Both the position numbers and the translations under genes were made by a program. From the NCBI GenBank assembly GCA_015062605.1, contig SUUI01000004.1, positions 19,251-83,250 of the forward strand: a stretch of 64,000 nt of DNA. Direction: 5' to 3'. The DNA comes from Eggerthellaceae bacterium. Lineage in GTDB: Bacteria > Actinomycetota > Coriobacteriia > Coriobacteriales > Eggerthellaceae. Each line of letters begins with the position of its first letter. Position 1 is the first letter of the stretch. Below are positions 1 through 53,531 of this stretch, piece after piece. The notes beneath the pieces are model-generated. The model saw only the letters and a program-made list of their open reading frames with translations. It did no database searches and had not been told where the DNA came from.

Positions 1-2577
1 GGGGTCGGCCTCGCCGAAGGACTTGGCCTTGTCGTCCGCAGCGATGGCGATAGCCGCGGGGCTGATGGTGAACGTGGACGATGCCGTGCCGGAAATGATG
101 TAGTTCGGGTTGGCGCCAGCCGCCGCGACCACGGTGATAGCATACTCGCCAACATCCTGGCCCTCCTCGCGGCTCAGGCTGTAGACCGGTGCGGCGCCCG
201 ATGCGGGGACGCCCGTGACGGTCGCCGTGAGCTCGGGGTCAGTCGCAGCGTCGTTGTCATAGACCTTTGTCTTTTCATTAGCAGCGATAGTGATCTCGGC
301 TGGAGAAATCTTGAAAGCAGCTTCCTTCGATCCATTAAATTTTCCGATGCCGGTAACGATCACGGTCGCCGTGCCCGCGTTGACGTTGTCGGAGTAGGAC
401 ACCGCGTAGTCGGTGCCAGCAGTAAGTGCGCGACCACCCGCAGCAACCGTGACTGCCGGAGTAAGCGCGGAGCCGGTGTAAGTTTGCCCTTCCACCGTAA
501 CCGTTGCGCCGATGATGCTCACTACCGTCTGCGTGTATTTGTTCGAGAACCACAGTGAACGCGTATGGATATAGGTGATCAGATTCGCAACATAGTTTGC
601 CCAGCGGGTCTTAGCATTCCCGGTAGCAAGATAAACCTGTTGGTATTGGCCAGACCCGAGAGGGGTTTGATTTTGGAAATAATGGTTGTCCTTTCCCCGT
701 CCAGTCCCCAAGTCGTTTACTTTTTGATGATTCATCTGAGCAGAGGCCGAGATGCTGTCTCTCATCAGCTCGACATCATCTTCGAAACCTTCGAACGCCC
801 ACTTGTAGTAGTTGTATTGGCGATAGACCTCTTCCATGAAATCCGAATGCTTGCCGAGGGTCTTGTAAATCGATGTCTTATATTCGGTGACATTGGGAAT
901 GAAGTCGCCCTCGCCACTTCTGCGATCCCCGTTTCGGCGGTCGTCCGCCTTTCCGAGCGAACTGTTTTGATATGTGGCGCCCATAGCATTGTCGAGATCC
1001 CATAAGGGACCGGCAATAAGCTTGTCGTCATCGCCTGTTCCATCGCGGTGGAACAGGATGCTGCCTGCGCAAACATCGTAGCTCTTCACATATTCGAACA
1101 TGAGATACATCTTGGCGAAGCTCTCGATGTCGATGTAGTCGGTATAGTACTTACCTTTTGAGTTGTAGCCTGTGTCAGAGCGGATGGCATCCCATGCATC
1201 CTGAAGCCATGCCTGGATTTCGGCAGCGACTCGCTCCATGTTCTCGGGACTCTCGTCAACCTCGCCCGACTCGTCTTCCCCTAATAGGTTGTCGCCTATC
1301 TTCTTGACGGTGATGCGGTTGTAGGCAGATGACCAACCAGAGGACTCTTTCAGACCTTCGAGAGTAAACTGGGGGTCGCCGCCCTGGGCAACGGGATCCT
1401 CCAAATAGTTATCCTGCTCGATCATGAAGCCGTCTTTGGTCACGAACGAGTCCGTCTTCGGCGTGATGGTATAGCAACCTTGGTACTCACCGTTCATCCA
1501 AACATCGACAGACGCAGTGTCCTGGCCGATACCAAGCTTATGTGCGAGCTCATAACCAGCACGATTGCACATCAGGCTCCGGTCGAGGCACTCAGCCAAA
1601 AGCGACCATTTCTTTGTCTTTTCGGAATCGATTCCAGGGAAGTTGATCTTCTTACCCAACGTGATGTTGTAGGGCTTCTTATCGTCTGCCTCCTGCCAGG
1701 TCGCGTTTCCGCGACCCTTCATTTTGGTCAGCTCGTACTCCGCACCGTTAATCCATATCGTGCCAGAACATTCGATATCGTGATTTGGATCACCGTCCAT
1801 CTGAGCAATAGTGGGCTTTCCATCGCTCTCATCTATCTCGATGAACACAGCTTGCACGGCAGCAGAACCCTGATAGGCAATGAGCTTATACGATTGGGTC
1901 GTGTTTCCGACGCTGAAAGAGTAGGTCACCTCTGTGCCGATACCCGGAATGGGACATGAACCGCTGGCGTAGGTGACATTGTTGAGAGTCACCGTAGCGC
2001 CGCCATCCCATGACAAGAAGCAGTTTGCAAGAACCGCGTTACCTGGCAGATATAGCTGGTAGGTATAGGTTGGATTATAAGTCGTGCCGCCAGTTTTCAT
2101 CTTGAACAGATCGATTGTTGCCGGAATACCGTTCGTCTCGGAAGGATCGACCCACAAAGAAGTTGGCGCGGTTACTGCTTTTGCATCGGACCCGTCATCG
2201 GACTCGGACGTCACGCCTGCTCTCAGCTCGAGGGGCTCCTTGATGTTGCTTCCATCGACCGCTTCCTCGGTCCCGACTAATTCGACCGTATCGCCCTTGA
2301 TAGCATCTAAAGCATCTGAAGCATCGGCGGCCTCAGGCATGTCAATAGATTCCAGAGAGTCATCGGCCTGCTGTTTTGCATCCTCCGCAATACCCGGCAC
2401 TGGCTCAGACTCATCGGCAGCTGCTTGTGCAAGACCTGGAGTCACCGAAGCTAGTTGCGTTTCAGGCAGATCGTTTACCGCTTCCGTTTGCGCCCAAGCA
2501 AGCGAAGGAACAAGTCCCGCCGTCAGAATAGTGAACACGAAAAGCAAGAATACGTTACGTACGAAACCCTTTTTCAT
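1..2577 (-). CDS. secreted CotH-kinase family protein with MBG-type repeats (3' end outside window)
   Basis: The frame is open from the ATG at 2577 to the window edge, 859 visible residues. It begins with a Sec signal peptide (MKKGFVRNVFLLF, then a hydrophobic stretch ending LAWA near residue 28), followed by an acidic Ala/Ser/Asp-rich linker to about residue 150. Residues about 230-545 read as a CotH-type atypical protein kinase: KMKGRGNATW near 286, CNRAGYELA, and GPLWDLDNAMG near 525, which carries the metal-binding Asp of the family. From about residue 690 there are immunoglobulin-like MBG repeats with NEKTKVYDN, DPELTATVTG and DDKAKSFGEADP. Spore-coat CotH proteins phosphorylate protein serines; in non-spore formers the family is usually a secreted surface protein. 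The domain order is read directly; the target is unknown. Confidence 0.85.
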   Translation of the reverse strand, partial: MKKGFVRNVFLLFVFTILTAGLVPSLAWAQTEAVNDLPETQLASVTPGLAQAAADESEPVPGIAEDAKQQADDSLESIDMPEAADASDALDAIKGDTVELVGTEEAVDGSNIKEPLELRAGVTSESDDGSDAKAVTAPTSLWVDPSETNGIPATIDLFKMKTGGTTYNPTYTYQLYLPGNAVLANCFLSWDGGATVTLNNVTYASGSCPIPGIGTEVTYSFSVGNTTQSYKLIAYQGSAAVQAVFIEIDESDGKPTIAQMDGDPNHDIECSGTIWINGAEYELTKMKGRGNATWQEADDKKPYNITLGKKINFPGIDSEKTKKWSLLAECLDRSLMCNRAGYELAHKLGIGQDTASVDVWMNGEYQGCYTITPKTDSFVTKDGFMIEQDNYLEDPVAQGGDPQFTLEGLKESSGWSSAYNRITVKKIGDNLLGEDESGEVDESPENMERVAAEIQAWLQDAWDAIRSDTGYNSKGKYYTDYIDIESFAKMYLMFEYVKSYDVCAGSILFHRDGTGDDDKLIAGPLWDLDNAMGATYQNSSLGKADDRRNGDRRSGEGDFIPNVTEYKTSIYKTLGKHSDFMEEVYRQYNYYKWAFEGFEDDVELMRDSISASAQMNHQKVNDLGTGRGKDNHYFQNQTPLGSGQYQQVYLATGNAKTRWANYVANLITYIHTRSLWFSNKYTQTVVSIIGATVTVEGQTYTGSALTPAVTVAAGGRALTAGTDYAVSYSDNVNAGTATVIVTGIGKFNGSKEAAFKISPAEITIAANEKTKVYDNDAATDPELTATVTGVPASGAAPVYSLSREEGQDVGEYAITVVAAAGANPNYIISGTASSTFTISPAAIAIAADDKAKSFGEADP

Positions 2578-40085: not shown

Positions 40086-41609
40086 TTACGGACGCATACC
40101 GCCTTTCGAGCCACCCATGCCGCCCATCATGGAACTGGTAATTTGCGTGACTTGCTGTCCGTTGACTGTAACCGTTCCACCGTTCAGCTCACCACCTAGT
40201 TCGTAGTCGAATGCAGACTGTGCACTGATGGAGACCGTTCCACCGTTGATCTTGATATAGCCGTTGGAATCAATCGCATCAGTATCGCCTTGCCCCATAG
40301 TGATATTGAGCGTGCCGCCATTGATCTCGACCAGACAGTCAGCAGATACCTCCGGCTCGTTCATGCCGCCCCAGCCTTGCTGGTTGCCAGAGTTCGAACT
40401 GCTCGATGAATCCTCTTCGGTATAGAGCTCGCCCACGCTGGCGTTCACGCCATCATCGGTGGCATAGAGGGTCACATCTCCCCCGTTCATGCGCACGACC
40501 TCGCCTTCAAGCGCCTCCGTGCACGTGGAGATATCAATCGTCCCAGCATCGATTGTCAGGCCAAACTCACCATGGATTGCATCGTCACCTGCACTGATCT
40601 TCATGGCACCGCCTGCAATATACATCTCAATATCGCTCTTCACTGCGTCATCGCCGCTTTGGATGTCGAAGATGCCGTCGGTAATCGCAACGAACGTGAC
40701 CGCGCTGATCGCGTCTCCATCGGCTTTGATGGAGAATGTGCCGCCATCGACAAGGATAAAGCCCTTCGCTGGCTCGAGTTCCTCGCTCGACGTGATGCCG
40801 TCATCACCCGCATTCAGCGAGAATGTGCCATCGAGGATCTTCACACAGTCCTTGCCTTTCAGGCAGTCACCGGTTGCAGTGATGTCGAAGGTTCCACCTG
40901 TGATGACAAGGTCATCCTTGCTTTTGATGCCGTTCGCGTAGTTCGCGGTGATGGAAAGCGAGCCGCTGCCGTTGATCGTCAAATCGTCCTTGCTGAAAAT
41001 GACAGCATCGGGCTCGTCCTCGCCGTCTTCAAGCGTGTAGTCGCCACCGTCTTTCAAGATGTTCTGAGAACCATTCGCGAGGGTGATAAACACCTTGTCG
41101 GCCTGCTTCACGTAGATCGCCGGACCGTCATCGTTCGTGATGGTCACTCCGTTCAGCACGATCTGAACCTTATCTGCGCTGGTTGCCTCTACAACGATCT
41201 GCCCGTCTGACAGCGTGCCACTCACCACATAGGTGCCCGCAGCGGTGATCGTAACCGTGGAGCCATCGATCGTCACACCCGAGGTCGAACTGGATGTCGC
41301 CGAGCCGCCCGACAACGTGATGGTCGTCGCAGACGAAGCATCATAGCTTGCATCCTGGTCGCTCTTCGAATACTCGAAATCCATTTGGCTGACATCGAGA
41401 TAAGTCTTGTCACTATAGATCTGCGTGTAGCTTGAGGCCTTACTCGTCACCTTTCCGGCGCTGGACGTAGTCGACGCGGCGGTTGTAGCGGAACTAGAAC
41501 TGGAGCCCGATGTGGTCGCTGCGGCGCAGGCGGGAAGACCCAGTCCCGCTACTAGGAGGAGTGCAGCTACGCCCGTTGCAATCCTCTTGGTCCTTTTCAG
41601 TGTCGTCAT
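40086..41609 (-). CDS. lipoprotein with Cthe_2159-type carbohydrate-binding beta-helix domain
   Basis: 507 residues from ATG 41609. A lipoprotein signal ends LGLPACAAA (lipobox Cys). After a Ser/Thr linker come parallel beta-helix turns, each with a GGT-(F/L)-x-I or DDAI/DDGI step (VITGGTFDITATGD, ILDGTFSLNAGDDGI, INGGTLNITMGQGDTDAID). This matches Cthe_2159-like polysaccharide-binding proteins. The C-terminus is Gly/Met-rich (MMGGMGGSKGGMRP). Last gene of the VTC/DUF4956 operon; probably a cell-wall surface protein working with them. Confidence 0.88.
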   Translation of the reverse strand: MTTLKRTKRIATGVAALLLVAGLGLPACAAATTSGSSSSSATTAASTTSSAGKVTSKASSYTQIYSDKTYLDVSQMDFEYSKSDQDASYDASSATTITLSGGSATSSSTSGVTIDGSTVTITAAGTYVVSGTLSDGQIVVEATSADKVQIVLNGVTITNDDGPAIYVKQADKVFITLANGSQNILKDGGDYTLEDGEDEPDAVIFSKDDLTINGSGSLSITANYANGIKSKDDLVITGGTFDITATGDCLKGKDCVKILDGTFSLNAGDDGITSSEELEPAKGFILVDGGTFSIKADGDAISAVTFVAITDGIFDIQSGDDAVKSDIEMYIAGGAMKISAGDDAIHGEFGLTIDAGTIDISTCTEALEGEVVRMNGGDVTLYATDDGVNASVGELYTEEDSSSSSNSGNQQGWGGMNEPEVSADCLVEINGGTLNITMGQGDTDAIDSNGYIKINGGTVSISAQSAFDYELGGELNGGTVTVNGQQVTQITSSMMGGMGGSKGGMRP

Positions 41610-41676: not shown

Positions 41677-42372
41677 TTATAGTACGTCCTTCGTTGCGGC
41701 AGCGCGGCCGAGCGTGATTTTGAGGTTTCCGTTCAGGCAACGGAGTTCGTCGATCAACTGCTTCTCCATACCCATCTGCCTCATACGGATGTCGTAGCGC
41801 AAACGATAGAGACTGCCCATGTTGGAGGTCGAGACCTCGACAAGCTCACAGCGATCGGTATAGCGCTCAAGCACCTCATCGAAGACACCCTCGTACGGAA
41901 GATCCTCGGGAATGGTCACCGTGAGAGCCTTCGTCGGCTCCTTCTGCTGACCAAGAGGCGAAAGGACGAAGATGAGGTTCGCGATGGCGACGATGATGGT
42001 GAACACGACCGCAAGCGCAAGATACCCCATTCCCGTTGCCAGGCCGATGGCCATGGCCAGGAACACGCTGCCGATATCCTTCGCAGATCCGGGGATGCTG
42101 CGGAACCTCACGAGGTTGAACACGCCCATCACCGCGATGCCTGCGCCGATGTTGCCGTTGACCAAGGTGATTACCATCTGCACGATCAAAGGCATGAGCG
42201 CCAATGTCACGACGAAGTTCTTCGAGTAGTTGTGGCGGTACATGTAGATGAACGCAACCGCTACACCGAGCACGATGGAGAACAGACTGCAGAGCAGGAA
42301 CTCGAACGAGGTAACGCTGCCCGCAAGCGAGTCAGCGCTCCCGTAGACGCTGGTTACGAGGCTTTCAAACAT
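41677..42372 (-). CDS. DUF4956 membrane protein
   Basis: 231 residues. Three or four membrane segments in residues 20-140 (FEFLLCSLFSIVLGVAVAFI, VVTLALMPLIVQMVITLV, IGSVFLAMAIGLATGMGYLA) with the conserved VFNLVRFRSIPGSAKDIGSV loop, and a cytoplasmic C-terminal domain of about 90 residues. DUF4956 proteins are regularly next to VTC-domain and CotH genes; their function is not established. It overlaps the VTC gene end by 19 bases with its SD inside that gene. Confidence 0.88.
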   Translation of the reverse strand: MFESLVTSVYGSADSLAGSVTSFEFLLCSLFSIVLGVAVAFIYMYRHNYSKNFVVTLALMPLIVQMVITLVNGNIGAGIAVMGVFNLVRFRSIPGSAKDIGSVFLAMAIGLATGMGYLALAVVFTIIVAIANLIFVLSPLGQQKEPTKALTVTIPEDLPYEGVFDEVLERYTDRCELVEVSTSNMGSLYRLRYDIRMRQMGMEKQLIDELRCLNGNLKITLGRAAATKDVL

Positions 42373-43310: not shown

Positions 43311-43355
43311 TGTTCGCCTCCTAACGATGCGTTTCCGCTTAATCTGACAGCTTGC

Positions 43356-43389
43356 ATTCTGCGCAGGCAAGCTGAAAACAATCTGAAAG
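43356..43389 (-). promoter_or_regulatory. response-regulator box and promoter of the VTC operon (box A)
   Basis: On the minus strand CTTTCAGATTGTTTTCAG (43389-43372) is a direct repeat of TTTCAG with 11-bp period; 10 bases further is CAGAAT (43361-43356) as a -10. The same arrangement is found in front of the response regulator gene. Confidence 0.65.
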
Positions 43390-43430
43390 GTCACGGTACG
43401 TTTCATCAGATTCATAATTCCCCCAAGTTT

Positions 43431-43448
43431 CTTTCAGGTTCTTTTCAG
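43431..43448 (+). promoter_or_regulatory. response-regulator box B
   Basis: CTTTCAGGTTCTTTTCAG, identical over 18 bases to box C at 44945. It lies upstream of both the VTC operon and moeA. No good -10 follows at the standard distance, so it may be an accessory site for box A. Confidence 0.6.
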
Positions 43449-43604
43449 GATGACTCCAGGGAAACCTCTGCCTATGCTGGTTCGATGTGAATGACTTTTC
43501 TTTTTCCGTCGCAACGGTCGTTGAGAAAGAGTATTATTGTTAAGTAAGAACCATCTGCGTGCTGTGCATGCATTATCTAAATACACCGAAAACGAGGTCT
43601 TACC

Positions 43605-44870
43605 ATGAGACAAGCCCCCACTCCGATTTCCATCAAAGAAGCCCGAAAGATCGTTCGCAACCATATCAAACCAGGACGCACGGAAACCGTTTTGGTCACG
43701 GATGCAGTTGGACGAGTCGTAGCCCACGACCTGACAAGCGATATCGATGTCACCCCATTCGATGACAGCGCCATGGACGGGTTCGCGGTTCGCGCTGCCG
43801 ATATCGAAACGGCAACCGATGATGCTCCTGTCGCACTTGAATGCGTCGACCATATCGGCGCCGGCGGCGTGTTCGAAGGCGTTCTGCAGCCCGAACAAAC
43901 AGCTCGCATCATGACTGGCGCGATCATCCCCGAGGGTGCAGACGCCGTCGTGAAGATCGAAGATGTCACGTTCACGGGAGAAGGAACCATCGGAGATATC
44001 GTCACGTTCTGCGCGCCAACAACCGTTGGCAAGAACATCCGCTACGCGGGAGAAGAAGCAAAAGCGGGAGACGTAGTCGTCGAGGCAGGCGAAGTCATCA
44101 CGGCCGCAGGCGCCGGCCTGCTCTCCGCATGCGGCAACCTGTACGTCGAGGTCTACGCACGTCCTGTCGTAGGACTCATCTCCATCGGTAGCGAGCTCGT
44201 TGAGGCCGACGAAGTTCCCAGTCGCGGCATGATCCGCAATTCGAACGTATGGGCGATGCAAGCATATGTGGCAGCCGCAGGCGGAATCTCGAAGGTCTAC
44301 CCCACCGTTCCCGATGATGTCGATGCGATCAAGGAGGTTTATCTTAGGGCCGTTGAAGAATGCGATCTCGTTGTTTCCACCGGCGGGGCATGCCTGGGCG
44401 ATTTCGATCTGACACCCGGCATCCTTATGGAGCTCGGCACCATGCATTTCGAGCGTGTGAGTGTGAAACCAGGCAAATCGCAACCATTCGGAGAAATCAA
44501 CGGAACACCGGTGTTCGTGCTTTCCGGCAATCCAGCAGCATCTTCGATGGGCTTCGAACTATACGTACGGCTTGCCATGCGTATCATGCAGGGGTATACG
44601 CAACTTGATCGCCCAACCGTACAAGCACGCATCACCTGCGACATTCGCAAGAAAGATCCCCGTGTGTTCCTCGAACGAGCCGTGCTTTCGCGGGTAGATG
44701 ATGGATTCGAAGTCGTCACGCTGAAAAACCAATCGTCGGCCTTGTTCGGCGCGCTCCAACGTTGCAACTGCTTCGCCGTGATTCCCGAAGGTCTGGACGG
44801 TGTGCGTATGGGCGATATCGTAACGTGCATCGTGTGCACAGCCGACGAAAGCCTGCCAATGGGAAAATAG
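43605..44870 (+). CDS. moeA: molybdopterin molybdenumtransferase
   Basis: 421 residues. VTPFDDSAMDGFAVRA, ARIMTGAIIPEGADAVV, VGLISIGSELVEADE, STGGACLGDFDLT, VKPGKSQPFG and VLSGNPAASS are the MoeA/MogA-fold signatures. It inserts molybdate into adenylated molybdopterin. This is the last common step of cofactor synthesis and serves the two molybdoenzymes of this window. Unusually placed between the VTC operon and its presumed regulator genes. Confidence 0.96.
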   Translation: MRQAPTPISIKEARKIVRNHIKPGRTETVLVTDAVGRVVAHDLTSDIDVTPFDDSAMDGFAVRAADIETATDDAPVALECVDHIGAGGVFEGVLQPEQTARIMTGAIIPEGADAVVKIEDVTFTGEGTIGDIVTFCAPTTVGKNIRYAGEEAKAGDVVVEAGEVITAAGAGLLSACGNLYVEVYARPVVGLISIGSELVEADEVPSRGMIRNSNVWAMQAYVAAAGGISKVYPTVPDDVDAIKEVYLRAVEECDLVVSTGGACLGDFDLTPGILMELGTMHFERVSVKPGKSQPFGEINGTPVFVLSGNPAASSMGFELYVRLAMRIMQGYTQLDRPTVQARITCDIRKKDPRVFLERAVLSRVDDGFEVVTLKNQSSALFGALQRCNCFAVIPEGLDGVRMGDIVTCIVCTADESLPMGK

Positions 44871-44944
44871 GGGCAGATTCGTTCCAAAATCGCCTCCAGG
44901 CAGCCATCCCAGCGCAGACACTGGTTCATATTTACCCTATATTT

Positions 44945-44977
44945 CTTTCAGGTTCTTTTCAGACGGACTAGTAGAAT
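44945..44977 (+). promoter_or_regulatory. response-regulator box and promoter of the two-component genes (box C)
   Basis: CTTTCAGGTTCTTTTCAG (44945-44962), then 9 bases, then TAGAAT (44972-44977). The direct repeat takes the place of a -35, as at class II activator promoters. Suggests autoregulation. Confidence 0.7.
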
Positions 44978-45037: not shown

Positions 45038-45775
45038 ATGAGAATCCTAGTTGTAGAAGACGATATAGCTTTAGCACGCGCTTTAGAGCAGGTGCTTCGC
45101 CACAACGGCTACGAAGCCGAGTCTGTGCATAACGGGCAAGACGGACTCGATTGGGCAGCAAGTGGCATCTATGACGTCATCGTTCTCGATGTGATGCTGC
45201 CGAAAATGAATGGTTTCGAGGTCGTGGCAAGTCTGCGTCGCAAGAACATCAGCACACCGGTTCTCATGCTCACCGCACGCGATCAGGTACGCGATAAGAT
45301 CACCGGGCTCGACAGCGGAGCCGATGACTACATGACCAAGCCCTTCGAGCCGGCAGAACTTCTCGCGCACATTCGTGCGCTCACCAGACGCCAAGGCGAA
45401 GTCATCTTCGAGAAACTCACGTTCTCTGACCTTTCACTCGATCTCAAGAGCTATGACTTGAGCTGTGACAATAAAAGCATCCATCTCAGTTTCAAGGAAT
45501 TCGGCATCATGAAGACCTTTATGAGCAACCCGCGTCAGACCATCAGCAAGGAGCTGCTGATCGACCGCGTATGGGGCTCGGATTCCACCGCAGAAGACAA
45601 CAATGTGGAATCCTACATCAGGTTCGTACGCAAGAAGCTCGACTTTCTAGGTTCGGATGCGCACATCGAAACGCTGCGCAAAGCGGGCTATCGCCTCGTA
45701 GAAACCGTCAAAGACATAGACGGAAATGACCTAGAGACTTCCCCTGCACAGGCGGACGGGGATGCCGATGCTTAA
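45038..45775 (+). CDS. OmpR-family response regulator
   Basis: 245 residues. The receiver has the acidic pocket VVEDD, the phospho-acceptor Asp in VIVLDVMLPKMNG, LTARD and the switch Lys in YMTKPF. The winged-helix DNA-binding domain is FKEFGIMKTFMSNPRQTISKELLIDRVWG through VESYIRFVRKKLD. It overlaps the histidine kinase gene by 14 bases. The TTTCAG boxes at 43372, 43431 and 44945 are its likely targets. Confidence 0.95.
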   Translation: MRILVVEDDIALARALEQVLRHNGYEAESVHNGQDGLDWAASGIYDVIVLDVMLPKMNGFEVVASLRRKNISTPVLMLTARDQVRDKITGLDSGADDYMTKPFEPAELLAHIRALTRRQGEVIFEKLTFSDLSLDLKSYDLSCDNKSIHLSFKEFGIMKTFMSNPRQTISKELLIDRVWGSDSTAEDNNVESYIRFVRKKLDFLGSDAHIETLRKAGYRLVETVKDIDGNDLETSPAQADGDADA

Positions 45776-47117
45776 GAAGCTACGCCAGAAATTCATCGCA
45801 CTCAACATGGTGACGGTTGCCGCCGTCATCATCGTCGTATTCTCGGGGATTGTCGCTATCAACCACCAACAAACCCTCACCAACGTCCATGAAGCAATGG
45901 AAGCATCGATCAACGATGCGGCATTCCGTCAAACAAACAATCGTGATGGCGGCAACTTCGGCGGCGGGCTCGATGCAAACGGAATGGCTTCACGCGAAGG
46001 AGAGGTTCCCAACAACGAAGGCACCATTCCACCAGAGCCTCCGAACGAGGGCGGTGACCAAGGTATGACGCCGCGCATAGGAGGCAAAGATGGCCGAATG
46101 AGCTCGATTCCTGTGGCTGTCTACCGCATCTCTGGCGATAAGCTCACGTTAGCGAGCGCTTCGAGTTCGGCATATCTGATCGACACCGATTTGAGCACGG
46201 CAAGCAGTACCATCATTGACCAAGCAGCGCAGGATGGCACCATCGACACCCTCGGTGTGCACTATTTGAAACGCACCGTGAATCAGACGACCTACGTCGC
46301 ATTCGTTGACGAAAGCGAAACATCTGGATGGAAGGACCTTGCGGCCACGTTGGCGCTCGTTGGCATCGGCGCGCTTTTGATCTTCTTCATCATCAGCTTA
46401 TTCTTCAGCCGTTGGGCATTGCGTCCCGTTGAAGAAGCATGGGATAAGCAGCGGCAGTTCGTGAGCGATGCCTCGCATGACCTCAAGACCCCGCTCACGG
46501 TCATCCTTGCGAACAGCTCCATCCTTCTTGACAACGCCGACGAGACCATCGCGAAGAACTCGCAATGGGTGGAAAGCACGAAGACCGAGGCAGAGCATAT
46601 GAAGCAGCTGGTCGGCGACTTGCTTACCATGGCGCAGATCGATGAAGGAGATGCAACGATGCCGCGCGAGGACATCGATTTCAGTACAATGGTCCAAGGC
46701 GAGTTCCTCGAATTCGAGAGCGTCGCATTCGAGCGCAACGTGGAATTCGCGAGCACGGTTGCCCCCGACATCCACGTTGTCGGCACGCCATCGCGCGTCC
46801 GCAGGCTCGTGCAAACGCTCATCGACAACGCGTGCAAGTATGCACCAGCCGGATCCGTGGTCACATTGAAGCTCGAGCGTGAGGGCCGCATGGCACGGAT
46901 GACCGTGCACAACGAGGGTGATCCGATTCCGGCAGAGGACCTGCCGCACATCTTCGATCGCTTCTATCGTGTGGATAAGGCACGCGCAAACGATGGCGAC
47001 AGCCATGGGCTCGGCTTAGCCATCGCATACGGCATCGCACAAGAGCATGGCGGTTCACTCGAAGTTGCAAGCACTGCTGAAGCAGGCACGACCTTCACAG
47101 CAAGGCTCCCATTGTAA
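45762..47117 (+). CDS. sensor histidine kinase
   Basis: 451 residues. Two membrane segments (about 14-34 and 193-215) flank an outside sensor of about 160 residues containing a Gly/Asn/Pro-rich low-complexity stretch. The kinase core has VSDASHDLKTPLTVIL (H-box), LVQTLIDNACKYA (N-box), HIFDRFYRVDKA and SHGLGLAIAYGIAQEHGG (G-box). It phosphorylates the regulator encoded just upstream. Start may be 45762 or the next ATG, 45768; both are in frame. The signal is unknown. Confidence 0.94.
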   Translation: MPMLKKLRQKFIALNMVTVAAVIIVVFSGIVAINHQQTLTNVHEAMEASINDAAFRQTNNRDGGNFGGGLDANGMASREGEVPNNEGTIPPEPPNEGGDQGMTPRIGGKDGRMSSIPVAVYRISGDKLTLASASSSAYLIDTDLSTASSTIIDQAAQDGTIDTLGVHYLKRTVNQTTYVAFVDESETSGWKDLAATLALVGIGALLIFFIISLFFSRWALRPVEEAWDKQRQFVSDASHDLKTPLTVILANSSILLDNADETIAKNSQWVESTKTEAEHMKQLVGDLLTMAQIDEGDATMPREDIDFSTMVQGEFLEFESVAFERNVEFASTVAPDIHVVGTPSRVRRLVQTLIDNACKYAPAGSVVTLKLEREGRMARMTVHNEGDPIPAEDLPHIFDRFYRVDKARANDGDSHGLGLAIAYGIAQEHGGSLEVASTAEAGTTFTARLPL

Positions 47118-49076: not shown

Positions 49077-52000
49077 TTAGCTGAATCGAATATACAACTG
49101 CGTCGGAAATGCCTCCCACATGCCACTCTCGCCGCCGTCATTATTGAAGTAATACACCACACCCCGATAATCGTAAGCATAAGCCGTGTTAATCTCATCG
49201 AGCGTGTAGGTAATCGTCACATGGGTTTTGCCGTCATCGCCCGTGTATGTATTCATCGTGGGCTGTCCTTCGATCGTCACCCAGCCGTGCGTATCATCGG
49301 GCGGGTCCTTGTAACGCTCCGAATTGTAGGAACCATCGCTCACATCCTGCCAGTGAAGGCTATTATCATTCCAATGGACATCATCGGAATTGATTGCGTA
49401 CGAGCCGCCGTCGATGATGAAATCCATGCTGATGGTTTTCTCTTCGGTATTCGTAATCACGCCCAAGCTGCCATAATCGGTGTTCGTGCTCACGAAACCG
49501 CCACTGAACACACGCATCGGATTGCCCTCCGCCGTACCCGTCGTCCCATCCGGATACTCGTAATCCATGACGGGCTTGATCAATGTGCTTACTGGCTCCC
49601 ACGTTGGATTCTCGGGCAGATGATACATCATGGACGCGAACATGGAGTCGCTGTCGCCCAGCTCGATCATCGCAGTCGGATCCGAAGCGGTGCTCACCGT
49701 GGTGCTTGAGTCATCCCCATCTTTATACAGATATACGACGTCGCCGAAGAACATCTGCTTATCGCCGATCGTTACCTTGGTCGGATCCGACCACGGCTTC
49801 GCGTCGTTGGCTTCCCATTCTGCGGCCGAGATGAAGTCGATATCCACCCATGCGTCCGCGTCTTCGTCATAGCGCATGAACTTGATGCGCGCCTTGCCGC
49901 CCTTGAGATCATCCGGAATGCCAGTCGTTTCGTCAGTGCCCACGATGCCGAAACCGATATGCCAATCTCCGCTATCGCCGCCATACTCATAGCTCGAGTA
50001 GATGCCGATCGTAGGCTTCTCATGCGCATCCGAAGCCGGGAACTCCATGTCGAATCGGTATGCAGAGGTTTCCCAATTGTTCCAGTGCGTAGAATCGCCC
50101 CATTCGTCATCGAGAACCTTGGCCTGGTAGGTATAGTAGGAATCACTGGAGATATCATCTTCACCGAGCGTGTACGTCACAGTCACATGATGGACGCCGC
50201 CTTCGTCAGAATGGACTACCGTCGGCGTGAGACCCGTGATCTCGGTGCCGTAGTCGGAGGACGTATCGCTCTTGGGTTTTTTGTACAGATGATGCTCAAG
50301 CCACGTGACCTTATCGGGATCAATCTCGCCGCCTTCGACAAGATGGTAGATGAAGTCCATCGTGATGGTTCCGGCATCACGGTCGAGTACGGGCGTGCCA
50401 TTCCCTTGAACGAAGCTGCCCCTATACAGGAAAAATTCGCTCGTTGTCACTTCGCCTACCCTGTTGTCCGGGAACGTGTATTCGAACGCAATCTTCGACT
50501 TCACGCGTATGCCCCCCATCCCACCGGGAGGAATGAGGCTACGCGTCATGTCCGCGCGAAGCTGTGTCGCATCTGCGGGGATTTCGTATTCGACATTCAG
50601 GTCGCTCGGAGCGTCAAGCGCGACCCATGCGCTCCCGTTGTAATACTCGAGATCAACAACATTCGCAGCCTTATCGTCGCCAAGCGTTTCAAAAACCCAT
50701 ACGTCGGGATCGTCAGGATCCTCGCGCAGAAGCGCAAGCATGCCCGTGCTGCCCGCAACGTCGTTTAAGGTCACCTCCGATGCAACATGCGCGATGCTGC
50801 CAGCGCTGCCATGGTCGTACGCAATGCTCGAACTCGAAATCGGAGAGATGGTCGGCTCCACATAATCGATATCGAACTCCATGGGATCATACGTGCTGTG
50901 GGAGATCACCCAATTGTTCCAATGATCCGCGTCATCGACACCGTAATCGCTGTAGATGACCTGGGCGGTGAAATCGTATTTTTTACCGGGAACGAGGGTA
51001 TCGAAGGTATAGACCAGCTTGTCACCGACGGTGCCATCATCGTTGTTGATGCGGGTTATCACAGGCGTCATATCGAACTCTTCGCCCGTCGCATGATCAT
51101 ACAGATGGGGATGCCAGTAGATGTTATCGTAGTTGAGAGGTCCACCGTAATCGACTTCGTATTGGTAATAGAGCGTGATCGTCTTCGCGGTTTCATCGAG
51201 CACCGGCTTGTCGATTTGACCGAAGAACCAATCCTGGTACAGATAGAAATCATCGGCAAGCGAAACCGTGCCTGTTTCCCCGTTAGGCAGCACATAATCG
51301 AATGCGAGGCTCATGGTCTCGCGGACGCTCCAGCAGAAATTGCCCTCATCATCGATATACCACGGGAAACGCCAGCCGATATCCGCCTCAAGGCCCTCGG
51401 CATCTTCGGGGATATCGTAGAGGGCGTTGTAGTCGCTGGGAGATAGCGCCGTGCGCTCTCCATCCTTCGTGGTATAGAGCTGCACATAGGCGAGGAAGTC
51501 CGCGAAGACCTCGCTCGTATCATCGGTGAGCGCCACCCATACCCATTCGCCCTTAAAGGCATCGTATTTCTTGAGCTTTAATTGGCCTGTGCTGCCCGCA
51601 ACATCGTTCAAATCGACGGTGGCCGTGAAGTCGACGAAGTGGTCATCCCCACCTTCATAGTAGTACAGCTCATGTACGAGATCGATGGTCGGTGCCACAT
51701 ATTCGGGGCCGACGTACTCTATACCCCATTCCTGAGTATATGACAACCAATTATTCCAGTGCTCTTCATCGCCGTAATCGCTGTAGATGGCATCAGCGTT
51801 GAATCTGTATGTGCTACCAGGGACGAGCGTGTCGAACGTGTATACGATCTTGGCTACGACCGTACCGTCCGCTTCCGTGTAATTGGATATCTCGTACGGT
51901 ATGTTGAGCTCGGCACCCGTCTCTTCGTCATATAGATGCGGATACCAGTAGATGCTGTCGTAATCGAGCGGCCCGCCACGATCGACCTGGTACGGGATGG

Positions 52001-53486
52001 TGAGCGTGAGCGTCTTGGTGGATGAGTCGAATTCCCATTCGTTGGCGTATTCGCCTTCGAAGAACCAATCATAGTATACGTAGAAGAAATCTTCGGGTAG
52101 CTTCGCGGTTCCCGTTTCGCCATTAGGGAATTCGTAATCGAAGACGAGGCGCACGATGTCACGAGTTCTGTGCCCCTCTAGCCATACTCCCTCGTCATCG
52201 AATAAGGGGAGAAGCCAAATGATTTCTGCCTCGAGGGTCTTGGCATCTTCGGGGATGTCGTAGAGAGCGTTCTTGTCGCTCGGCGATAACAGCGTTCCCG
52301 CGTCATCCTCGCTTGTCTTGGCGTAGAGGTCCACATAACCTTCTGGCCAGCCCTCATCGCCATCATTGTAGAACGACACATCGTCCCACTCTTGCGTGTC
52401 ATAGTTATAGTGCTGAAGCTTCAGCTGGCCGACGTTTCCCGCAACGTCGTTCAACGTAACTATCGACGTGAAGATGGCGCCAGGCCAGTCTCCTGTCCCA
52501 TCGGTTTCGATCTTAGGCACGAGCTCGATTGTCGGAGCGGAATAGGCGATGGGGGTCGCCGTGTATGTCGCCGTATACGTGGCATCGCCCGTAACCTCGG
52601 CTAAGTCAGGACTCCAGCCCGCAAACGTATAGTCATAGCTTGCATCGGAAGGCTTCGTGGGCGTGGTCGGCTGCGAGATGTCAGCAGCGGCCGTTCCGTA
52701 ATCGTAAGCCGTAGCCGGCAAGAGCTCCGTGGAACCATCCTCGTCGACGAAGGTCACATTGTACTGGCGCAGCGTCTCGTCATAAGTGGCCGTATACGTG
52801 GCATCGCCCGTGACGTCCGAAACCTCAGGCGACCAACCAGCAAAGACGTAATCGTATTGAGCTGTGGAAGCACGCGTCGGTGTGGCAGGCTGGACGATAT
52901 CGGCCGCCTTCGTGCCCTCGGCATAAGATGTTTCAGCTTGGAGCACCGTCATACCGTCATAATCGACGAACGTGACATTGTAGCGAGGGAGCTCCTCTGT
53001 AAGATATGCGGCGGTATACGTTGCATCGCCCGTCACATCCGCGAGCTCGGGCGTCCAAGCGATGAAGATGTAACTGAACTCATCGTCATTCGGACGGACC
53101 GGATCGTCGGGAACGGAGATGTCCGAGGCTTTCGTACCCTCATCATATTTGGCAGATGAGATCGTGGAGGCGTCCCAATCAACGAATGTCACCGTGTATT
53201 GGATGACATCCGGTTCTTCTGGAGGCGGCGTCGGCTCTTCAGGCGGATTGATGATTTCAGGAGGTGGCGTCTGCTCTTCGGTTACGACGATCTCCGGTGT
53301 GGTCAATATGGGCTCTGGGATGTCAGGGATGAATGGCGCGGGATGCACGAGAGCTACAAGCAGGATCAAAAGGAAACCCGAAAAGGCGAACCCTCCCCAT
53401 GTCAGGCCCTTCCGATGCTTCCCGAGCCCTTCAGGAGCATACGGCGCTGCGAACTCCGGATAGCGATCGTCTATCTCTAAGGTCAT
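49077..53486 (-). CDS. membrane-anchored giant repeat protein (three InlB-like and four large novel repeats)
   Basis: 1469 residues from ATG 53486 (CAGGAG seven bases upstream; GTG/ATG at 53519 lacks one). Residues 1-30 cytoplasmic, 31-52 a membrane segment (GGFAFSGFLLILLVALVHPA), 53-96 a Pro/Glu linker. Three InlB_B-type repeats of about 72 residues follow (YNVTFVDYDG, FAGWSPEVSDVTGDATYTA; 97-316). Then four modules of about 280 residues (317, 595, 877 and 1157 on), three carrying LNDVAGxxGxL-L and each with a YxYQVDYGGPL-type and a VTYTLxxxxxxxxYxYxA block. No LPXTG or S-layer motif: the N-terminal helix is the only anchor, so the protein sticks outward. Probably an adhesin or cell-surface scaffold; unproven. 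Confidence 0.9.
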   Translation of the reverse strand: MTLEIDDRYPEFAAPYAPEGLGKHRKGLTWGGFAFSGFLLILLVALVHPAPFIPDIPEPILTTPEIVVTEEQTPPPEIINPPEEPTPPPEEPDVIQYTVTFVDWDASTISSAKYDEGTKASDISVPDDPVRPNDDEFSYIFIAWTPELADVTGDATYTAAYLTEELPRYNVTFVDYDGMTVLQAETSYAEGTKAADIVQPATPTRASTAQYDYVFAGWSPEVSDVTGDATYTATYDETLRQYNVTFVDEDGSTELLPATAYDYGTAAADISQPTTPTKPSDASYDYTFAGWSPDLAEVTGDATYTATYTATPIAYSAPTIELVPKIETDGTGDWPGAIFTSIVTLNDVAGNVGQLKLQHYNYDTQEWDDVSFYNDGDEGWPEGYVDLYAKTSEDDAGTLLSPSDKNALYDIPEDAKTLEAEIIWLLPLFDDEGVWLEGHRTRDIVRLVFDYEFPNGETGTAKLPEDFFYVYYDWFFEGEYANEWEFDSSTKTLTLTIPYQVDRGGPLDYDSIYWYPHLYDEETGAELNIPYEISNYTEADGTVVAKIVYTFDTLVPGSTYRFNADAIYSDYGDEEHWNNWLSYTQEWGIEYVGPEYVAPTIDLVHELYYYEGGDDHFVDFTATVDLNDVAGSTGQLKLKKYDAFKGEWVWVALTDDTSEVFADFLAYVQLYTTKDGERTALSPSDYNALYDIPEDAEGLEADIGWRFPWYIDDEGNFCWSVRETMSLAFDYVLPNGETGTVSLADDFYLYQDWFFGQIDKPVLDETAKTITLYYQYEVDYGGPLNYDNIYWHPHLYDHATGEEFDMTPVITRINNDDGTVGDKLVYTFDTLVPGKKYDFTAQVIYSDYGVDDADHWNNWVISHSTYDPMEFDIDYVEPTISPISSSSIAYDHGSAGSIAHVASEVTLNDVAGSTGMLALLREDPDDPDVWVFETLGDDKAANVVDLEYYNGSAWVALDAPSDLNVEYEIPADATQLRADMTRSLIPPGGMGGIRVKSKIAFEYTFPDNRVGEVTTSEFFLYRGSFVQGNGTPVLDRDAGTITMDFIYHLVEGGEIDPDKVTWLEHHLYKKPKSDTSSDYGTEITGLTPTVVHSDEGGVHHVTVTYTLGEDDISSDSYYTYQAKVLDDEWGDSTHWNNWETSAYRFDMEFPASDAHEKPTIGIYSSYEYGGDSGDWHIGFGIVGTDETTGIPDDLKGGKARIKFMRYDEDADAWVDIDFISAAEWEANDAKPWSDPTKVTIGDKQMFFGDVVYLYKDGDDSSTTVSTASDPTAMIELGDSDSMFASMMYHLPENPTWEPVSTLIKPVMDYEYPDGTTGTAEGNPMRVFSGGFVSTNTDYGSLGVITNTEEKTISMDFIIDGGSYAINSDDVHWNDNSLHWQDVSDGSYNSERYKDPPDDTHGWVTIEGQPTMNTYTGDDGKTHVTITYTLDEINTAYAYDYRGVVYYFNNDGGESGMWEAFPTQLYIRFS

Positions 53487-53507
53487 GCGCCGTCTCCTGA
53501 CAATGCC

Positions 53508-53531
53508 TAAGGCAGGCAATGGATACCTGCC
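53508..53531. repeat. dispersed palindrome, decayed copy
   Basis: TAAGGCAGGCAATGGATACC plus TGCC: same left arm as copies at 48014 and 57473 and a right arm of GGATACCTGCC. It overlaps the leader of the repeat-protein gene. Confidence 0.55.

Follow-up and report, generated by a model that had tools for sequence, protein, structure and literature searches.

A conserved direct-repeat promoter box marks a predicted two-component module for a VTC-DUF4956-Cthe_2159 operon

The window described here, meaning the whole 64,000-nucleotide stretch of Eggerthellaceae DNA that was analysed, contains two groups of genes that point away from each other, with moeA lying between them. These genes, together with a CotH-type gene at the window edge that bears on the argument below, are the following.

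40086-41609, minus strand: Cthe_2159-family secreted protein, possible lipoprotein (LPAC); PF14262, E=1.2e-93
41677-42372, minus strand: DUF4956 membrane protein; PF16316
42354-43313, minus strand: VTC-domain protein, polyphosphate-polymerase-like; PF09359, E=8.6e-30
43605-44870, plus strand: moeA; MoeA_N/MoCF/MoeA_C
45038-45775, plus strand: OmpR/PhoB-family response regulator; Pfam Response_reg and Trans_reg_C
45762-47117, plus strand: sensor histidine kinase, overlapping the regulator gene; HisKA and HATPase_c
1-2577, minus strand: CotH-kinase protein, a 1057-aa open frame running past the window edge

The minus-strand genes for VTC, DUF4956, and Cthe_2159 overlap or stand close together, and GGAGG precedes the VTC start codon, an ATG at 43313. 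The signal sequence of the Cthe_2159 protein was recognised by inspection, and DUF4956 is 48-95% identical across relatives. On the plus strand, the regulator, composed of a receiver domain and Trans_reg_C, adjoins its HisKA/HATPase kinase as is usual in OmpR/PhoB-family two-component systems. Its recognition helix reads NNVESYIRFVRKKL, with NNVEAY.SFLRKKL as the consensus among orthologues, and an alignment of kinase orthologues shows the N-terminal sensor part to be conserved. In a comparison with NCBIfam, neither regulator nor kinase matched an equivalog at or above its cut-off. A protein of 1480 aa encoded elsewhere in the window (49077-53519, minus strand) contains repeated segments and matched nothing in Pfam.

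What connects the two groups? An earlier note had pointed to one direct-repeat box occurring at three places, two of them 9 to 10 bases before a -10 element. The exact matches and the spacing are both as claimed.

43372-43389, minus strand: box A, in the VTC operon promoter; CTTTCAGATTGTTTTCAG, exact match
43356-43361, minus strand: -10 element CAGAAT of the VTC promoter, 10 bp past box A
43431-43448, plus strand: box B, between box A and moeA; identical to box C
43411-43455, plus strand: 45-nt copy, 82% identical, of the promoter stretch around box C (44925-44969)
44945-44962, plus strand: box C, in the regulator promoter; CTTTCAGGTTCTTTTCAG, exact match
44972-44977, plus strand: -10 element TAGAAT of the regulator promoter, 9 bp past box C

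Box A points to the VTC gene and box C to the OmpR-type regulator gene; the VTC -10 deviates from TANNAT. With up to three mismatches allowed, the window holds boxes A, B, and C and no further match. The note had stated that a random frequency genome-wide would refute its proposal. The box is rare: the 1.70 Mb genome has four copies of TTTCAG-N5-TTTCAG, of which three lie in the window and one on contig 29, and a reversed control pattern does not occur at all. Three congeneric genomes agree at 18/18 positions of each box, although the spacer around the boxes differs among them.

How widely is this arrangement conserved? Eighty loci were collected, nearly all by a VTC-family match in members of the same order and with the boxes disregarded. 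When one mismatch to TTTCAG-N5-TTTCAG is tolerated, a box precedes 38/44 regulator orthologues. It precedes 36/44 VTC genes whose locus also includes the regulator and 12/28 VTC genes whose locus does not, set against 1 of 2,400 shuffled 560-bp segments. Several of the failures show correctly placed TTTAAG half-sites, which widens the consensus to TTTMAG-N5-TTTMAG; a good box is absent at some loci with the regulator nearby (L094, L100, and L113, for example). Spacing is equally regular. The gap from box to -10 is 10 bp in the VTC promoters of all 59 relatives that allowed scoring, and in regulator promoters it is 9 bp in 47 relatives and 10 bp in 17. All of these counts, of boxes as well as of gaps, overstate independence because the compared genomes are related. 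The window promoters match the relatives' values at both genes (10 bp for VTC, 9 bp for the regulator). A direct-repeat site of 11-bp period upstream of the regulator's own gene is also what is seen in autoregulated OmpR/PhoB-family systems.

The box follows the genes when they are separated, and no other computational result argues as strongly that every one of them is a target. Regulators that stand apart from VTC have a box of their own (L157-L163), and VTC usually retains one. DUF4956 genes away from VTC likewise carry their own box at five loci, as do separate Cthe_2159 genes at two (L340 and L267).

The module also extends beyond the class. A scan of named genomes found it in Gordonibacter, Slackia, Adlercreutzia, Raoultibacter, Enteroscipio, and Senegalimassilia and, among the Bacillota, in Peptostreptococcus, Marasmitruncus, Clostridium minihomine, and Desulforamulus, among others. 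The Bacillota loci often share the divergent two-box layout. Their VTC promoters have a box with a spaced -10 in 17/24 cases (against 0.25% of shuffles) and their regulator promoters in 8/17 (against 0.09%). In a regulator tree, the Bacillota and Coriobacteriia members form one group (SH-aLRT 96) with other OmpR paralogues outside, a topology compatible with old inheritance or with transfer between Bacillota and Coriobacteriia.

Which genes, then, make up the regulon in this genome? Allowing one mismatch to TTTMAG-N5-TTTMAG yields 23 sites, of which 19 are inexact. These 19 were rejected as members because a TANN[AT]T spaced 8-11 bp away is absent from all of them, which leaves the predicted regulon almost closed. 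The fourth exact site, on contig 29 at about 20.9 kb, is followed by TAGGAT and precedes a gene for a DUF4405 membrane protein (630-1433, minus strand, of locus L038) with a Cys-rich tail and a C-terminal CxxCxxxC. The gene has a box and -10 upstream in one congeneric genome (L275) too, as does a 34% identical relative in another genus (L258). The predicted regulon therefore comprises the regulator, the kinase, VTC, DUF4956, and Cthe_2159, plus the DUF4405 gene. The earlier note had named the first five as a closed regulon, tied together by boxes in the layout of an OmpR-type activator. The tie and the layout hold up well, with the same box, spacing, and gene arrangement in most relatives examined, which supports a regulatory role; closure survives in part, in that the five genes do stand behind boxed promoters and the inexact sites lack a -10, but the DUF4405 gene has to be added. 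The note had suggested a search upstream of CotH genes outside the window; the CotH gene in the window (556-2577) was rejected as a member, its upstream region having no site at one mismatch or fewer.

Who binds the boxes? The regulator encoded beside them is the predicted binder. One could argue instead that a paralogous OmpR-family regulator is the main binder and that the neighbouring regulator is merely one of its targets. Paralogous Eggerthellaceae regulators at eleven loci do carry TTTCAG-N5-TTTCAG and a -10 in their own promoters; the motif is thus not exclusive, cross-talk is possible, and another regulator could bind. We nevertheless regard this alternative as unlikely, given that in two phyla the box is linked to the regulator, VTC, DUF4956, and Cthe_2159 and accompanies each of these genes where they lie apart, and that in the window genome the sole exact site off the locus precedes the DUF4405 gene rather than another regulator. 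Single boxes with a -10 occur at seven further loci, where the genes, named by sequence inspection, resemble MreB, a PpiC-type foldase lipoprotein, an HtrA-like protease, PspA, and an FtsX-like permease. These have an envelope-stress flavour and are possibly targets of the paralogous regulators.

If the neighbouring regulator does bind, does it activate or repress? The box covers the -35 position, where a bound protein could block RNA polymerase. Repression seems improbable to us all the same: no -35 consensus was found at the normal distance that would serve polymerase alone (the best match to TTGACA is at most 3/6 in nearly all promoters), and in activated PhoB, PmrA, and CiaR promoters the direct repeat likewise ends about 10 bp before the -10. 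Activation is what we infer. A third reading, in which the boxes arose as T-rich matches by chance or are mere duplicated sequence with no part in regulation, can be set aside with near certainty: boxes B and C do lie within a single 45-nt duplication, yet three boxes in the window compare with 0.11 expected from shuffles, and the whole-genome count and the recurrence of promoter footprints at fixed spacing in many genomes reject a chance repeat.

The position of moeA, between boxes B and C, was passed over in the earlier note. In relatives, the usual order is Cthe_2159, DUF4956, and VTC reading away from one box and regulator and kinase reading away from the other, the two divergent boxes typically standing 25-220 bp apart in the collected loci. 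moeA separates them in the window's genus alone, represented by three genomes; in the other genera tested, its orthologues are about 50% identical and sited at other loci. moeA was therefore rejected as an old member of the module and is better explained as having entered a divergent promoter. It is flanked by the 45-nt direct repeat, made of the regulator promoter including boxes B and C, and box B resembles a second copy of that promoter, now lacking a -10 (a TANNNT at 8-11 bp from box B was looked for and is absent). Because box B is unchanged while the spacer diverged, it may retain a role.

Taken together, these observations make it very probable that the locus encodes a self-contained, autoregulated two-component module activating its own genes and the VTC operon. 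The kinase would sense a signal, probably from the envelope, and then phosphorylate the regulator, which in that state would bind TTTMAG-N5-TTTMAG, an 11-bp direct repeat, as a head-to-tail dimer. Placed 9-10 bp upstream of the -10, the box would replace the -35 element, and the regulator would activate two promoters, that of regulator-kinase and that of VTC-DUF4956-Cthe_2159. In the ancestor, the two promoters would have stood back to back; in the window's genus, moeA would have come between them, and a duplication would have left the box of the regulator promoter on either side of it.

What might the operon do? Yeast Vtc4 is matched by the profile of the VTC family at E=2.5e-14, the catalytic domain being common to both, and the basic and acidic tunnel residues are invariant in the bacterial family, so polyphosphate synthesis by the module's VTC protein is plausible. 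A Pfam search found no SPX domain in the bacterial protein. Yeast VTC has the membrane partner Vtc1, and DUF4956 is likely its counterpart here; by conjecture, DUF4956 could be the membrane partner of VTC and Cthe_2159 could be a surface polymer-binding protein. The operon likely makes or handles polyphosphate or another anionic surface polymer. More tentatively, the whole might be a dedicated module, ancient or transferred, whose two-component system forms a class of its own and turns on a bacterial equivalent of the VTC polymerase (VTC, DUF4956, and Cthe_2159), so that polyphosphate or another anionic polymer is made at the envelope under regulation. Related genes have been met elsewhere. 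Gram-positive Pel clusters have CotH-PPP-DUF4956 accessory genes, pairing a VTC-type protein with DUF4956 as here, and VTC genes lie near CotH in Clostridium perfringens NELoc-2 (PMC7112168, PMC2879425). In the portions of those two papers available to us, VTC goes with CotH, with DUF4832, or with the synthesis of Pel, whereas the window's VTC accompanies a two-component system and Cthe_2159, and neither the box nor the regulator is described. The open-access literature, as far as it was available, names DUF4956 in just three papers and yielded no regulator of a VTC-DUF4956-Cthe_2159 operon and no description of the window regulator or box.

As judged by sequence comparison, then, this is a real, conserved cis-regulatory module, largely uncharacterised, whose type of mechanism is familiar and whose regulon is newly assigned. 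The conserved promoter supplies a widespread operon with a predicted regulator, a predicted autoregulatory loop, and a short target list. The function of the operon thereby becomes testable via the signal of a single kinase, with the operon promoter as reporter.

How does the module compare with known systems? PhoB, PmrA (BasR), and Mycobacterium tuberculosis PhoP recognise tandem half-sites with an 11-bp period, and in these regulators, as in CiaR, two head-to-tail winged helices adjoin the -10 and replace the -35 contact. The window regulator is related to PhoB, PmrA, and PhoP in sequence and resembles them in winged-helix architecture, recognition helix, and site geometry but differs from them in half-site sequence and targets. 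In CiaRH of streptococci and in BAS0540-BAS0541, regulator and kinase share one autoregulated operon, and the window module appears to be alike in this. CiaR and its Bacillus anthracis homologue BAS0540 use NTTAAG-N5-TTTAAG, to which binding of BAS0540 was demonstrated by gel shift (PMC4938410). Streptococcal CiaR regulates htrA and csRNAs; in the window genome, no htrA gene follows any of the four exact boxes. The CiaR half-site TTTAAG falls within the TTTMAG of the present module, and TTTAAG half-sites occur in many of the window's relatives, four loci having the full TTTAAG-N5-TTTAAG. The lineage differs, and the half-sites here are mostly TTTCAG. Finally, CiaR and BAS0540 are reported to control many genes, whereas the window regulator appears to be devoted essentially to VTC-DUF4956-Cthe_2159.
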